DNA from: Agromyces sp. Root81
GTDB lineage: Bacteria; Actinomycetota; Actinomycetes; Actinomycetales; Microbacteriaceae
Reading direction: 5' to 3'
NCBI RefSeq assembly: GCF_001429165.1
Contig: NZ_LMIR01000002.1
Span: forward strand, 1,291,261 to 1,355,260
DNA: 64,000 nucleotides
The position numbers and the translations under genes are program-made. Below, in pieces: positions 5,938-20,826 of the stretch; positions within the stretch are counted from its first letter, which is position 1; the number at the start of each line of letters is the position of its first letter. The notes under the pieces were generated by a model. That model did no database searches and had not been told where the DNA came from. It worked only from the letters and a program-made list of their open reading frames with translations.

Positions 5938-7071
5938 TCATCGAGCCCGGCTGGCGGTGACGGTGAACTTCGCGTTGCGGGCGATCTGCCGGGTCGGCCC
6001 CACGACGCGTTCGAGGAGCGGCCGGTAGCGCAGGTGCGAGTTCCACACGCACCAGAGCTCGCCACCAGGGCCGAGCACCCGGGCGGCGTCGGCGAAGAGG
6101 TGCGCGGCGATGCCGGTCGAGATCGCCGCATCGCTGTGGAACGGCGGATTCAGCACGATCAACGGTTCGCTCGCGTCGACGAGCCCTTCGAGACCGTCGG
6201 CGCGAGTGACGTGCACGCGATCGGCGACGCCGTTGGCCGCGGCCGTCAGGCGAGCGGATGCCGCGGCAGCCGCCGATCGATCGGTCGCCGTCACCCGCAA
6301 CCCGGGGCGCTCACGCGCGAGCCGGGCGGCCACGATGCCAGAGCCGCACGCGAGATCGACGGCGGTCGCGGCATCCGGAACCGCATCGCCCAGCTGCTCG
6401 AGCAGGAACCTGGTGCCGATGTCGACACCCGTGCCGGCGAAGACGCCGCCGTGGGCGACGACCTCGAGGCCGAGATCGTCGTGGCGGGCGCTGCGCGGCC
6501 AGTCGGCGGGGCTCGCGGCCGTCGTGGCCGGGCCGCCCGGCTCGCGCGCGATGAGCACACGGGACTTCTGCCGCGCGTGGCTCACGTCGACGCGGCCGAA
6601 CCGACGACGGAGCACGTCGTTCATCGCGAGCGACATGTGCTTGATGCGGCCGCCGCCGACGATGACCACCTCGGGACGCGCGTGCGCGGCGATGAGCCCG
6701 GCCACCTCGTCGAGCCGGTCGAGCGAGCGAGGCAGGCGCAGCAGCACGAGTCGCGCACCTCCGAAGAGCTCCGGCCCGAGCGGTCGCGCGTCCACCGTGT
6801 CCGACAGCTCGATTCGGGCCGCGTTCTCGGCGAGCGCGCGTTCACCCGTCACGAGGTCCTGGTGCACGCGGATGCCCCGAGCCCCCGCGTCCGCCGCGGC
6901 GAGCGCGAGCGCCCCGTAGGAGTCGTCGACGACGACGACCTCTCCCGGCCCGGCCTCTCGGATCAGCACCGCGGCCTCGTCGAGGATCAGCCGGTCCGCG
7001 GCATCCGATGCCTCGAGCCCCGGGCCTTCGACATCGGGGTGGCGCCGCAGAGAGCCGAAGTCGAAGGGCAT
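5938..7071 (-). CDS. Class I SAM-dependent methyltransferase, RsmC/RlmG-like
   Basis: A 377-residue protein with a degenerate N-terminal methyltransferase-like half and a C-terminal catalytic Rossmann domain. The SAM motif is AVDLACGSGIVAARLA at about residues 245-260, and the catalytic NPPFHSD is near residue 308, the signature of guanine N2 methyltransferases of the RsmC/RlmG group that modify ribosomal RNA. The ending RNAKFTVTAS is also typical of that group. No signal peptide is seen. Which rRNA base is modified cannot be told. It is transcribed leftward as a single gene, diverging from the P-type ATPase gene. Confidence 0.85.
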   Translation of the reverse strand: MPFDFGSLRRHPDVEGPGLEASDAADRLILDEAAVLIREAGPGEVVVVDDSYGALALAAADAGARGIRVHQDLVTGERALAENAARIELSDTVDARPLGPELFGGARLVLLRLPRSLDRLDEVAGLIAAHARPEVVIVGGGRIKHMSLAMNDVLRRRFGRVDVSHARQKSRVLIAREPGGPATTAASPADWPRSARHDDLGLEVVAHGGVFAGTGVDIGTRFLLEQLGDAVPDAATAVDLACGSGIVAARLARERPGLRVTATDRSAAAAASARLTAAANGVADRVHVTRADGLEGLVDASEPLIVLNPPFHSDAAISTGIAAHLFADAARVLGPGGELWCVWNSHLRYRPLLERVVGPTRQIARNAKFTVTASRAR

Positions 7072-7174
7072 CCCCCAAGGGTACGGCGCAAGAACCGATG
7101 TCGGCGCCCTCTCCCGCTCGCGGCATCCGTCGGGCTAGCCTGTCGAGTGTCGACACGACGTCCGGGGGTTCGCA

Positions 7175-17692: not shown

Positions 17693-17786
17693 GCGACCAC
17701 CTCGATGACCCGCTCGTCGGAGGTCGGCGGAAGCGCGCAGGTGTTCAGCTGCGAGACGAGGAGATGCGTTCGAGTAGATTCGCATC

Positions 17787-18464
17787 GTGACCCGCCGCTC
17801 CCCGACGATCTTCGCCTACACGGTCGCAATGCCATGCGTCCTCACCCTCACTATCGCCCTCAGCGGATGCAGTCAGCCCGACGCTCAACCGAACGAGATC
17901 GATGCAGCACGCCTCGTCGCGCTCGAGGCGAACGAACCGTTCGATGTCGGCGCGTACGGCGCCGAGTGGATATCCCGACCCGCGCGAGCAGCACCGGCAT
18001 CCGTCAATGCCCTCGCCTCGCGTGGCCGGATCGGCATGGAGTTCGAGCTGGACGATATCCAGCCCGCGGCCGAAATGGATGAGCCGTGGGCACGCACCTT
18101 TCCCCTCGGCCGCGCACTTTTCGCCGAAGTTCGTGCGAATGGATGGGAGCCCATCGCCGTCTCCTGCACGGCACCCGACCACCCCGGAGCCCGTGGCGAA
18201 CTCGGCACCATCGAGATCTCGGCCACCAAACGCATCGATGACCACGACGCGATTTCAACCATCTGGGTCGGCGCCGGCGACCACGCCGGTGAGATCGTCG
18301 CGGCCCGCGGCGAGGCCGCAGTGCCGTTCCACACCGAGAGTCCCGACCCCTGGGGGGCAGTCCCTCTCGATGGGCCAACCTGCCTCGACACCGATGCACC
18401 ACCTGCGAAGACCGTGAGTTCCGGAGCAGCGCCGCAGGACCTGTCCACTGTGCGCGCCGACTGA
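17787..18464 (+). CDS. Lipoprotein of unknown function
   Basis: A 225-residue protein with a lipoprotein signal peptide ending in the lipobox LSGC (Cys31), so it should be anchored outside the membrane. The mature part has no recognised domain; it contains three further cysteines and a region ISATKRIDDHDAISTIWVGAGD that looks like a beta-hairpin. It starts with GTG at 17787. It ends 1 bp before the stop of the convergent peptidase-domain gene; the small hairpin GACTG-AAT-CAGTC covers the junction. The tail-to-tail position next to that cassette is suggestive but proves no link. Confidence 0.75.
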   Translation: MTRRSPTIFAYTVAMPCVLTLTIALSGCSQPDAQPNEIDAARLVALEANEPFDVGAYGAEWISRPARAAPASVNALASRGRIGMEFELDDIQPAAEMDEPWARTFPLGRALFAEVRANGWEPIAVSCTAPDHPGARGELGTIEISATKRIDDHDAISTIWVGAGDHAGEIVAARGEAAVPFHTESPDPWGAVPLDGPTCLDTDAPPAKTVSSGAAPQDLSTVRAD

Positions 18465-18465
18465 A

Positions 18466-20100
18466 TCAGTCCGCCGGCACCGCCGCTCCGTAGATCGACT
18501 TCCACCACCCGTACGCACCCTGCGGAGCACCGCTCGCGGCCTCGTCGATCGGTACCGTCCGTACCTCGCCCTCCCACGGCTCGTAGAACTGTAGTTCGTC
18601 GCCGTTGTGGCCGACGAGCAGCACGTAGTGCCGCGGAACACCGGTGTCATCGCCCACCAGGAACGGCACCGGCGTTCCCGAGTCGACCGCCGTGATCGCC
18701 CGGCCGATGAGGGCCTGCGCGTCACTGTCCGGACCGATCAGGCTGTACTCCAAATCGACATCGGCATCGAGGATCCTGGAAACCTCATCCCCGTATCCCC
18801 ACGGTGCCGAGCCGAGCCAGGTCCCGGGCCAAAGGGTGAACTTGTTCGTCTGGATCCGGATCTCCTCCTGCAAGAACCGAAGCCGCTCGGCCGAGGTCAG
18901 TCCCGCCTCGGGAAGCCGATCGATCAGTGTGACGTCCGACACATAGTCAGGAACGTACCCATCAACGAACTCGCCCTCGGCGATGAGCAGGGCGAGGAAT
19001 GGGTCGCGCTGGGCGGCGAGCATCAGGAGCGACGACGACCCGCACGTCGTGTTCGTCATCTGCGTGACGACCGTGCCGTCAGGCGTCGTCAGCGAGCTCC
19101 ACTCGGCGGCGTCCTCGTTCGTGATCTCGGGAAGCCCGAGCCCCGCGACTGCCTGGATCTGCTTCTGCGTCATGGTCCGCAGCTTCAGCGCCAGCGCAAG
19201 TGTGAGCGCGAGCCCCGCGCCGGTCGCGAGCGCGGCGATGATGATCTGACGCTCATCGGGCGCCTCTGCCGTGTCGAGCGCAGCATCCAGGCGCTTCCGC
19301 TCCGCCTCGCTCAGCTCGTCTCGAGCGGCGAGGTAGGCCACCCACTCGTCGTGGGAGACGACGGCTCGATCGGGGTCGCCGATGCCATCGGCCAAGGCGA
19401 GTATTCCGTCGACGATGTTCACCGTGCGCGAGGTGGGAAGCCCACACAGCCTCGCATACCCGGACGCATCCGTGAATGCGAAGCGGAGCCGCCGCTCGGC
19501 CTCGATTACCGTGCCGAGTGCATCTCGGCACGCGATCAGCGCCGCCCTCGCTTCGTCGTAGACGTTGTGAAGCGCGATCATCGTGGCGGCGCAGTGCGAA
19601 TCGTCCCAGTCGGCTGGCGGCGCTGACACCGTGAACGCGTCACCGCGCGCCGACCTCATTCCCGCCGCGTGGCGATCGAAACGCGACTGACCGTCGTCGA
19701 GCTCGTCCGCGTAGGCTTTGAGCGCGTCGGCGATGACGCGGATGCCGCGGGCCTCAAGCCCGGCAAGACCGATGAACGCGCGCACGCGTGTGGCAGCAGT
19801 GCGGCCGGCCGCGGCGTCCAGCCCCGCTTCGACGTCGCTGGCACGCCCCTCGAGCGCGGTCGCCTGCGCATCGAGCTCTTCGGCGACGTCCTCGTAGGAT
19901 TCGGCGCTCCGCTGCACGCTATCCGGTGAACCGCCTGGCCGCAGTAGGTGGTCGCCGGTCCACGTGCGCGCCAGGTCTTCGAGCGTGCCCAGGGCGGTCA
20001 GCACGCCGACCGCCGACGGAGATCTTGGCAGCAGACTCAAGACGTTGTCGATCGCTGCGACGCGATCGGTGCACTCGTCATATCGATCCTGCAGGTTCAT
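18466..20100 (-). CDS. Helical, membrane-anchored protein with a C39-like cysteine peptidase domain
   Basis: A 544-residue protein. Residues 1-285 are mostly helical, like the secretion-targeting heads of type VII-associated proteins (two long helices around 62-140 and 165-210). A hydrophobic segment at 286-306 (IIIAALATGAGLALTLALAL) is a probable membrane anchor. The C-terminal part (about 340-544) has a cysteine-peptidase pattern: TTCGSSSLLML with Cys353, RHYVLLVGHNG with His491, and FYEPWEG at the place where peptidase C39-like folds have N/D-P-W. This suggests a papain-fold peptidase, perhaps with Glu507 as third residue. The start at 20100 overlaps the upstream small gene (ATGA). No close named family is recognised. 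Confidence 0.72.
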   Translation of the reverse strand: MNLQDRYDECTDRVAAIDNVLSLLPRSPSAVGVLTALGTLEDLARTWTGDHLLRPGGSPDSVQRSAESYEDVAEELDAQATALEGRASDVEAGLDAAAGRTAATRVRAFIGLAGLEARGIRVIADALKAYADELDDGQSRFDRHAAGMRSARGDAFTVSAPPADWDDSHCAATMIALHNVYDEARAALIACRDALGTVIEAERRLRFAFTDASGYARLCGLPTSRTVNIVDGILALADGIGDPDRAVVSHDEWVAYLAARDELSEAERKRLDAALDTAEAPDERQIIIAALATGAGLALTLALALKLRTMTQKQIQAVAGLGLPEITNEDAAEWSSLTTPDGTVVTQMTNTTCGSSSLLMLAAQRDPFLALLIAEGEFVDGYVPDYVSDVTLIDRLPEAGLTSAERLRFLQEEIRIQTNKFTLWPGTWLGSAPWGYGDEVSRILDADVDLEYSLIGPDSDAQALIGRAITAVDSGTPVPFLVGDDTGVPRHYVLLVGHNGDELQFYEPWEGEVRTVPIDEAASGAPQGAYGWWKSIYGAAVPAD

Positions 20101-20390
20101 GCCGCGCCTTCGGACCCCGCAGGGACGCTGATCTGTCGGAGGGTGCTGGCCACCCGCTGCAGGACTGCGGCGGGGTCCGCAACGGTGCCGAGCTCGCTGA
20201 GTACTCGGCGCACGGCCTCCCGCCCGTCGTCGGGCCCCTCGACGGCCGCGGAACCAAGGTCGATCACGGCAACGAGCCCCGCGAGTCGAACGCCGACACC
20301 GAGGCGATGTACGGTCGGCCAGGCAACCCCAGCACGCGCGAATTCCACGGCCCACCGGGCAATGTCCGCCGGTGCCGCCGGCGTCGCCAT
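20097..20390 (-). CDS. Small hypothetical protein, middle gene of the peptidase cassette
   Basis: A 97-residue, mostly helical protein without cysteine, signal peptide or membrane segment. Its start shares one base with the upstream stop (TGATG) and its stop overlaps the downstream start (ATGA), so it is coupled on both sides. A chaperone-like or partner role for the neighbouring WXG100-like and peptidase proteins would fit that layout, but nothing in the sequence proves it. It is too short to assign to a family by eye. Confidence 0.68.
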   Translation of the reverse strand: MATPAAPADIARWAVEFARAGVAWPTVHRLGVGVRLAGLVAVIDLGSAAVEGPDDGREAVRRVLSELGTVADPAAVLQRVASTLRQISVPAGSEGAA

Positions 20391-20695
20391 CACAAGACCG
20401 CCGCCCGACGCCCGCCGCCGGGTTCGCGGCCCGAGGACGCGAGGTCGATGTCGAGGTTCTGGAACGCCGTGAGGTCGTCCTCGATCTCCTGCGCCATCTG
20501 CATGAGGCCGTCTCCGACTGTGCGGAACTCCTCGACCCAGACGGCGGTCGCCGCCGTCGCCTCGTCCTTCAGTTCGGGACCGAGTCCGCCGATAGCGAGC
20601 ACTGTTCCGTGCAACGCCCACGCCGATGCGGTGAGGCGGAGTTGTTCCACGGCGACGTCGACCTGCGACTCGTCGATCCTCACCGAATCCGTCAT
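20390..20695 (-). CDS. EspC/WXG100-like small helical protein
   Basis: A 101-residue protein built as a helical hairpin: DESQVDVAVEQLRLTASAWA, a glycine-containing turn (AIGGLGPE), then ATAVWVEEFRTVGDGLMQMA and a polar tail. Length and the opening VRID-x-x-x-VDVA-x-x-LR resemble EspC/DUF2580 and WXG100-type partners of type VII secretion, though the strict W-x-G is missing. The start at 20695 follows GGAGG with a 5-base gap. It heads the three-gene cassette. No ESX secretion genes lie in the window, so any secretion machinery must be elsewhere. Confidence 0.66.
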   Translation of the reverse strand: MTDSVRIDESQVDVAVEQLRLTASAWALHGTVLAIGGLGPELKDEATAATAVWVEEFRTVGDGLMQMAQEIEDDLTAFQNLDIDLASSGREPGGGRRAAVL

Positions 20696-20826
20696 TTCGC
20701 CCTCCACTCGGCACGGTCAGTGCACACCCTCTCACATCGGACCACGCCACGACATGGGGACCGCTGCCCGTCCGACGAGCGGACATGGTGGGGCGGGTGA
20801 CAGCTGCCCGATGTGCCGCAGCGCCC

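Follow-up and report, generated by a model that had tools for sequence, protein, structure and literature searches.

Antibacterial effectors delivered by type VII secretion systems (T7SSs) are well documented in Bacillota; the T7SSs of Actinomycetota are best known from mycobacteria, and an antagonistic role for them is, to our knowledge, largely open. Here we describe a four-gene cassette (genes A, B, C and D) in a 64,000-nucleotide stretch of the Agromyces sp. Root81 genome, hereafter the window, that encodes a candidate protease effector (C), two small partners (A and B) and a lipoprotein (D). By description, its closest known counterpart appears to be the Staphylococcus aureus TslA/TilA/TlaA1/TlaA2 cassette, in which the lipoprotein TilA binds the T7SSb lipase toxin TslA and protects the cell (PMC10730906). 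Both cassettes comprise four genes: two for small partners, one for an effector with helical export and enzyme parts, and one for a lipoprotein at the enzyme end. TslA is, however, a phospholipase from Bacillota with the reverse domain order, whereas the actinomycetotal cassette has a C-terminal papain/C39-like domain. The TslA partners are small helical proteins (PMC10730906), and B is only a putative helical hairpin partner; the likeness drawn here is one of gene content and layout.

Other described systems share parts of this organization. LXG loci likewise have two small genes upstream of a headed effector, and the FxxxD of Lap1 (PMC9600955) resembles F78xxxD82 of A, but A, B and C lack Pfam matches to LXG, DUF3130 and DUF3958, the phylum differs, and B is unlike WXG100 proteins by profile and in one family mostly lies behind C. 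The Tox-PL1 proteins of actinobacteria are predicted papain-like toxins with WXG heads exported by type VII secretion, with the published signature NC-H-DxQ (PMC3482391), which differs from the Q..TC-H-Y[E/D/N]P of the C family. The cysteine-protease toxins Cpe1 (with Cpi1) and CdiA-CT pair a toxin with a cognate inhibitor and appear to include the nearest Protein Data Bank (PDB) profile neighbours of the C domain; these matches are weak, and delivery is by type VI secretion or contact-dependent inhibition (CDI) in Gram-negatives (PMC12136450). Among 5.39 million open-access papers, six bring together type VII secretion, papain-like, cysteine protease, toxin and immunity, and none of these, by title and abstract opening, concerns the present cassette. 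The same literature yielded no joint mention of Microbacteriaceae, type VII secretion and WXG100, and none of chagasin and type VII secretion; chagasin occurred with immunity protein in one unrelated paper only (subscription papers lay outside this search).

We conclude that the locus is probably an accessory cassette that encodes an effector with its immunity protein and depends on a type VII-like secretion system. This reading follows from the combination of an enzyme whose catalytic set is of protease type, a head and a partner of the kind used in export, and an apparently outward-facing candidate inhibitor that differs in kind between lineages.

Layout and conservation of the cassette

The cassette has the following features (window coordinates):

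20390..20695, minus strand: gene A, 101 aa, WXG/EspC-like partner (W53-x24-F78-x3-D82; profile matches to T7SS-locus proteins)
20097..20390, minus strand: gene B, 97 aa, putative accessory protein (reading frame and alignments; no Pfam match above cut-off)
18466..20100, minus strand: gene C, 544 aa, effector candidate with helical head and papain/C39-like domain
19447..20100, minus strand: head of C (residues 1-218), predicted WXG100-like helical bundle (sub-threshold PF25547, PF06013 in relatives, AlphaFold (AF2) helices)
18466..19095, minus strand: predicted catalytic domain of C (residues 336-544; conservation, PDB profile matches, VIA-align)
19060-19062, 19042-19044, 18628-18630 and 18580-18582, minus strand: codons of the catalytic set Q347, C353, H491 and E507 of C
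19180..19245, minus strand: residues 286-307 of C, the previously suggested membrane helix, better read as a pair of soluble helices
17787..18464, plus strand: gene D, 225-aa lipoprotein with GTG start, proposed immunity/inhibitor protein (lipobox, homology, empty-site comparison)

The three minus-strand genes are coupled, as the original prediction described: A and B overlap by 1 base (TGATG) and B and C by 4 (ATGA), with a GTG at 20707 as a possible alternative start for A. The trio is real but incomplete, the fourth gene, D, which travels with it, having been overlooked. D bears a lipobox read by eye as LSGC at Cys28, is convergent with C and ends beside the C stop codon. The G+C content is 67.4-72.8%, with 68.8% for the window.

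We compared the cassette with related loci using a home-made gene caller, which can miss genes; gene names (rpoC, dnaK, deoA, add, clpX, valS) are our own reading of the sequences, and genome-search counts are lower bounds. C proteins with an N-terminal helical part are termed headed. The headed loci analysed are 30 from a large-genome family (f21; 6-11 Mb, probably Streptomycetaceae) and 10 from outside it, with L130 and L132, which are the same places as L114 and L115, counted once. The order A, B, C is preserved down to 28% C identity, which argues that the association is more than chance: C is 62% identical to the window protein in L036 (same genus), 54% in L002 (Xylanimicrobium pachnodae), 30-31% in L037/L038 and 28% in L040/L041, each of these last two pairs being nearly identical loci. 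D is convergent in L036 and L002; in L037/L038 it lies upstream of A and reads divergently, and in L040/L041 it follows C in the same orientation. Within the ten headed loci outside f21, A is present in seven by profile and three by position, D in nine and B in eight. An automatic lipobox scan located D in 8 of 12 headed loci; homology and inspection by eye supplied the D genes of L037, L038 and the window, and L116 gave none.

Several loci depart from this layout. L055 and L057 have a small gene without W (with ends ..YTTTD.. and ..YATTD..) followed by C, no B, and then a longer lipoprotein that looks tandemly duplicated (L055:7248-8402, L057:5384-6532): its GW..C core seems to occur twice, with weak similarity to D (E 0.056 for L057). 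In L116, C is accompanied by a B-like gene and, weakly, by one resembling A (E 0.048), with no lipoprotein seen. The A gene of the second genus member (L036:9648-9980, minus strand) is split over two frames, by assembly error or decay. Near valS, two genes with the C domain (L051:5336-7285, L071:6881-9649) have an extended N-terminal part and stretches resembling A; they are perhaps headed and were excluded from the headed counts.

The partners are thus mostly present wherever C is headed, and the trio is largely conserved together; within the window's own family, however, the set is rare. C occurs in at least 2 of 60 genomes of the genus and at least 4 of 299 of the family, one of these spurious by our reading, and a profile search of 150 family genomes returned only the window's own. 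The G147 match (L005/L039) was dropped as a histidine-kinase-like frame, again by our reading. Across the phylum, the headed profile found C in at least 9 of 396 genomes, two of them in f21. Searched against 392 genomes of the order, a profile of five D proteins gave at least three matches. One is the window's own and another, in G563, immediately follows the C gene; the third, a lipoprotein in G436, we treat as chance, since it is weak and not beside that genome's C-domain gene. The viral contigs and plasmids searched contained no relatives.

The cassette fills 17693-20826, between an M1-aminopeptidase gene and an MFS gene. In three of six cassette-free relatives these flanking genes are adjacent, with spacings of 9 (L125), 137 (L126) and 516 bases (L124); in L127 a single further gene separates them, and the arrangement in L128 and L129 is less similar. 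All four genes are absent between the same flanking genes in relatives, so D appears to be part of the inserted unit, and by this comparison the cassette is accessory DNA that entered the site as one piece. The L036 cassette is found on the side of the M1 gene towards dnaK.

A chagasin-type protein in the D position

Chagasin-type (I42) proteins inhibit papain-family cysteine proteases, and Pfam names the I42 family a peptidase inhibitor. We found that the D proteins of two f21 loci, L114 and L115, are lipoproteins of this family (PF09394; 31.1 and 51.7 bits, cut-off 27.2). C is present in at least 37 of 200 f21 genomes, and we analysed the 30 best-scoring of 47 matched places, one per genome. 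An A gene bearing the motif described below lies upstream of C in 29 of these loci, and B is present in all 30, following C in 27 and preceding it in the other 3 (by a B profile that included L114-L116). An I42-like protein accompanies C in 29 of the 30, always on the strand of C, its domain starting 47-586 bases behind the C stop. All 29 have a hydrophobic N-terminal stretch (lipobox or membrane segment) ahead of the domain. The I42 profile was built from 16 seeds taken from the loci counted, namely L114/L115 and 14 more within L130-L159; the Pfam I42 model itself scored above cut-off in nine of ten f21 D proteins scanned, the tenth reaching 27.0 against 27.2 bits. L153 has no I42 gene although its catalytic residues are kept. 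Some f21 genomes have several C genes (G1257 has three), and one of the copies in G1245 is matched as two separate fragments.

No I42-like protein was found at E up to 0.01 in the loci examined outside f21. The window D protein matches no Pfam family and is not I42, nor are five further D proteins from outside f21. To judge from these searches, the D slot in the window lineage is filled by a lipoprotein unrelated to I42.

Catalytic domain, helical head and the type VII link

Conservation across the C family centres on a cysteine-protease-like set. All 38 distinct headed proteins in the comparison (L038 and L041 not included) have Gln347, Cys353, His491 and an Asp, Glu or Asn at 507 (Glu in the window), the order of the Gln-Cys-His-Asp/Asn(Glu) set of papain-like (clan CA) cysteine proteases, and Q, C and H are invariant across a 37-member domain alignment, drawn from 43 non-redundant domains after exclusion of L020, L029, L040, L047, L068 and L074. 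The Cys353...His491...EPW pattern noted earlier was correctly placed, and conservation supports Cys353, His491 and Y-E507-P. Its "EP" is conserved as Y[E/D/N]P; the W that follows is not kept in L002 or L037.

This Q/C/H set and the PDB profile matches favour the C39-like peptidase originally proposed, and the available folding evidence points to a papain-like core. All five PDB matches of the domain profile are papain/C39-like by our reading (best E 0.017); the closest are 9l5u, which we take to be perhaps the Cpe1/Cpi1 pair, and 8ssm, which has Ala at the position aligned to Cys, both weak (E 0.017 and 0.04). AlphaFold models of full-length C, and of the domain from a two-row alignment, were of low confidence. 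Foldseek searches with them gave no match at E <0.001, those to the full-length model being generic helical bundles that include PPE41 (E 0.86-1.1). The window domain is unmatched by Peptidase C39 (PF03412, PF13529) at the curated cut-off; among the 37 domain members PF13529 appears in two (best 0.0019) and PF03412 in one (0.0026). PF15644, presumably the Tox-PL1 family, does not match window C and matches 1 of 19 relatives weakly (0.0036). The window proteins fall below the cut-offs of C39, LXG and Tox-PL1, and we rejected membership in these curated families. Separately, about 48 kb from the window start the genome encodes a Peptidase_C39_2 protein that scores above cut-off (87 bits; G000:C2:1243520-1243975, L098).

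The head of C and its partner A may be of WXG/EspC-like type. The best Pfam match of the cassette is WXG100_2 (PF25547) to C residues 55-135, at 21.7 against 27 bits, and no LXG match appeared among Pfam results up to E 1 for A, B and C; an NCBIfam scan of the same three proteins gave nothing meaningful. In L115 and L114, which the headed profile recovers (E 7.3e-35 and 3.4e-39) and which align to the others along the head, the C head matches WXG100 (PF06013) at 30.5 and 28.7 bits (cut-off 27.3). The A counterpart of L115 matches EspC (PF10824; 26.6 versus 23.5 bits), that of L114 scoring 18.3, below the cut-off. Through these relatives, the earlier suggestion of an EspC/WXG100-type partner beside an effector gains support.

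The A motif points in a similar direction. Of 158 small genes called, 14 (at 10 distinct places) have W-x24-[FY]-x3-[DE], and every one of them is A-type or lies within a T7SS locus; the pattern resembles the Yxxx[D/E] and Lap1 FxxxD signals (PMC9600955). Four of the ten A proteins outside f21 have the strict W..[FY]xxx[DE] motif (window, L036, L040 and L041); L or M replaces F/Y in L002, L037 and L038, and the strict motif is absent from the small genes of L055/L057 and from the WXG100 proteins of L090, L093 and L095. Among 6275 open reading frames (ORFs), the first four matches of the A profile outside its own loci are small proteins encoded in type VII-like loci (E 7e-5 to 8e-4), including the second small protein near rpoC in the Agromyces genome itself. 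Direct profile comparison of A with WXG100 was weak (probability 11.5%), and hhalign of B against WXG100 gave nothing. No Pfam family covers B, including the relatives scanned. A B profile built without f21 found L115 (0.0031) and L114 (0.0045) as its first matches outside its own loci among 7088 ORFs; B may be a dedicated accessory protein, perhaps a chaperone.

The same genome has a T7SS-like locus. A few genes from rpoC lie an EssC-like ATPase (1498 aa, with FHA and two FtsK/SpoIIIE stretches), an RDD/FHA protein, the second small protein, which overlaps a 462-aa gene, and a WXG100 protein (PF06013, 3.6e-13) in a stretch containing an unread base. This locus (G000:C2:546001-566000, L090) has repeated WXG100-like genes, with unread bases in some frames, and gene copies may be collapsed in the assembly. 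In each of the nine cassette holders searched, a long frame (at least 1,333 aa) matches an ATPase model, and YukD was found in two of the nine. Near the L115 cassette of f21 lie genes for a T7SS_signal protein (PF21725) and a subtilase, both scoring above cut-off.

Proposed function, alternative explanations and significance

From the sequences we infer secretion of C, proteolysis, inhibition by the window D protein and an antibacterial role. In this scheme A, through its W..FxxxD signal, and the helical head of C would form an export complex, B would act as a dedicated accessory protein, and C would be exported so that its C-terminal papain/C39-like domain could cleave a protein target, either outside the cell or within a neighbour. 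D, a predicted lipoprotein on the outer face of the membrane, would bind and inhibit the enzyme, protecting the producer and its kin.

Some observations temper this proposal. None of A, B, C and D reaches a curated cut-off in the Pfam scan. The fold evidence that the C domain is papain/C39-like is weak, if convergent. Finally, the ATPase model scores above its cut-off in only two of the nine cassette holders and also has matches in 9 of 14 control genomes.

C might be exported by type VII secretion yet serve as an enzyme of the producer's own cell wall or protein processing, for instance in envelope remodelling, with D a regulator and not an immunity protein. Papain-like folds include cell-wall amidases, and the window cassette lies far from the secretion locus. 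A cell wall hydrolase dedicated to T7SSb, EssH, has been reported (PMC13059805). We nevertheless regard such a role as unlikely, given the patchy distribution (at least 2 of 60 genomes in the genus), the several C genes of some f21 genomes (three in G1257), the variation of the D family between lineages and, in f21, the neighbouring protease-inhibitor family with its membrane or export N-terminus. The earlier idea that C is a surface peptidase anchored by a transmembrane helix at 286-306 seems to us very improbable. This is the most hydrophobic stretch of C (Kyte-Doolittle 2.26 over 19 residues), and the same stretch gives 1.86-2.31 in L036, L002, L037 and L040 (2.31 in L002). But no signal peptide is seen in C, and the segment falls to 0.87-1.43 in the four stand-alone relatives where it can be aligned in alignment A1 (L042, L044, L045, L070). 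A290, A292 and G294 within it are kept in 10 of 10 headed proteins, and the low-confidence AlphaFold model has two separate helices there (281-292 and 297-307). We rejected the anchor on the strength of the alignment, the hydrophobicity values and this model.

Stand-alone relatives of the domain raise the alternative that C is intracellular and unconnected to secretion. At least 79 of 396 genomes of the order have a C match, and among the loci fetched this is mostly a 200-360-aa gene without a head. In several families it adjoins genes for thymidine phosphorylase (deoA) and for adenosine deaminase (add) or deoC (L042-L050, L052-L054, L067, L070, L075), and in another it lies near clpX and/or valS (L056, L058-L064, L074, L117); the stand-alone members scanned gave no curated-family match of weight. 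The cassette partners, however, are wanting there: beside the stand-alone genes examined, the D and B profiles found nothing and the A profile nothing convincing, and a lipobox ORF lies near only 2 of 33 such genes (L051 and L071, with their long N-terminal parts, included), both antisense over other genes by our reading. A, moreover, bears a type VII-type motif. The stand-alone genes examined seem to lack the cassette partners and both forms coexist in G563 and G660, so the headed, escorted form seems a distinct use of the domain, and we hold a purely intracellular role for C to be rather improbable. One stand-alone gene, in a probable mycobacterial relative (L119, G799; 6614-7162), lies a few kb from WXG-like and EccD-like genes, possibly by chance.

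Returning to the effector-immunity interpretation, a broader proposal is that type VII antagonism in Actinomycetota employs secreted papain-like proteases, with immunity conferred by membrane-anchored inhibitors, of which the chagasin type would be one and the unrelated window lipoprotein another. We advance this only tentatively, at somewhat less than even chances. If it is true, an inhibitor family of cysteine-protease control became a toxin immunity protein, and the catalytic domain is shared with an old stand-alone actinobacterial gene family. The cassette offers a defined candidate protease/inhibitor pair, its C gene being present in at least 37 of the 200 probably Streptomyces-like f21 genomes, and it opens a way to understand how immunity may come to be provided by a protease inhibitor and what role an unrelated lipoprotein plays in the same place.

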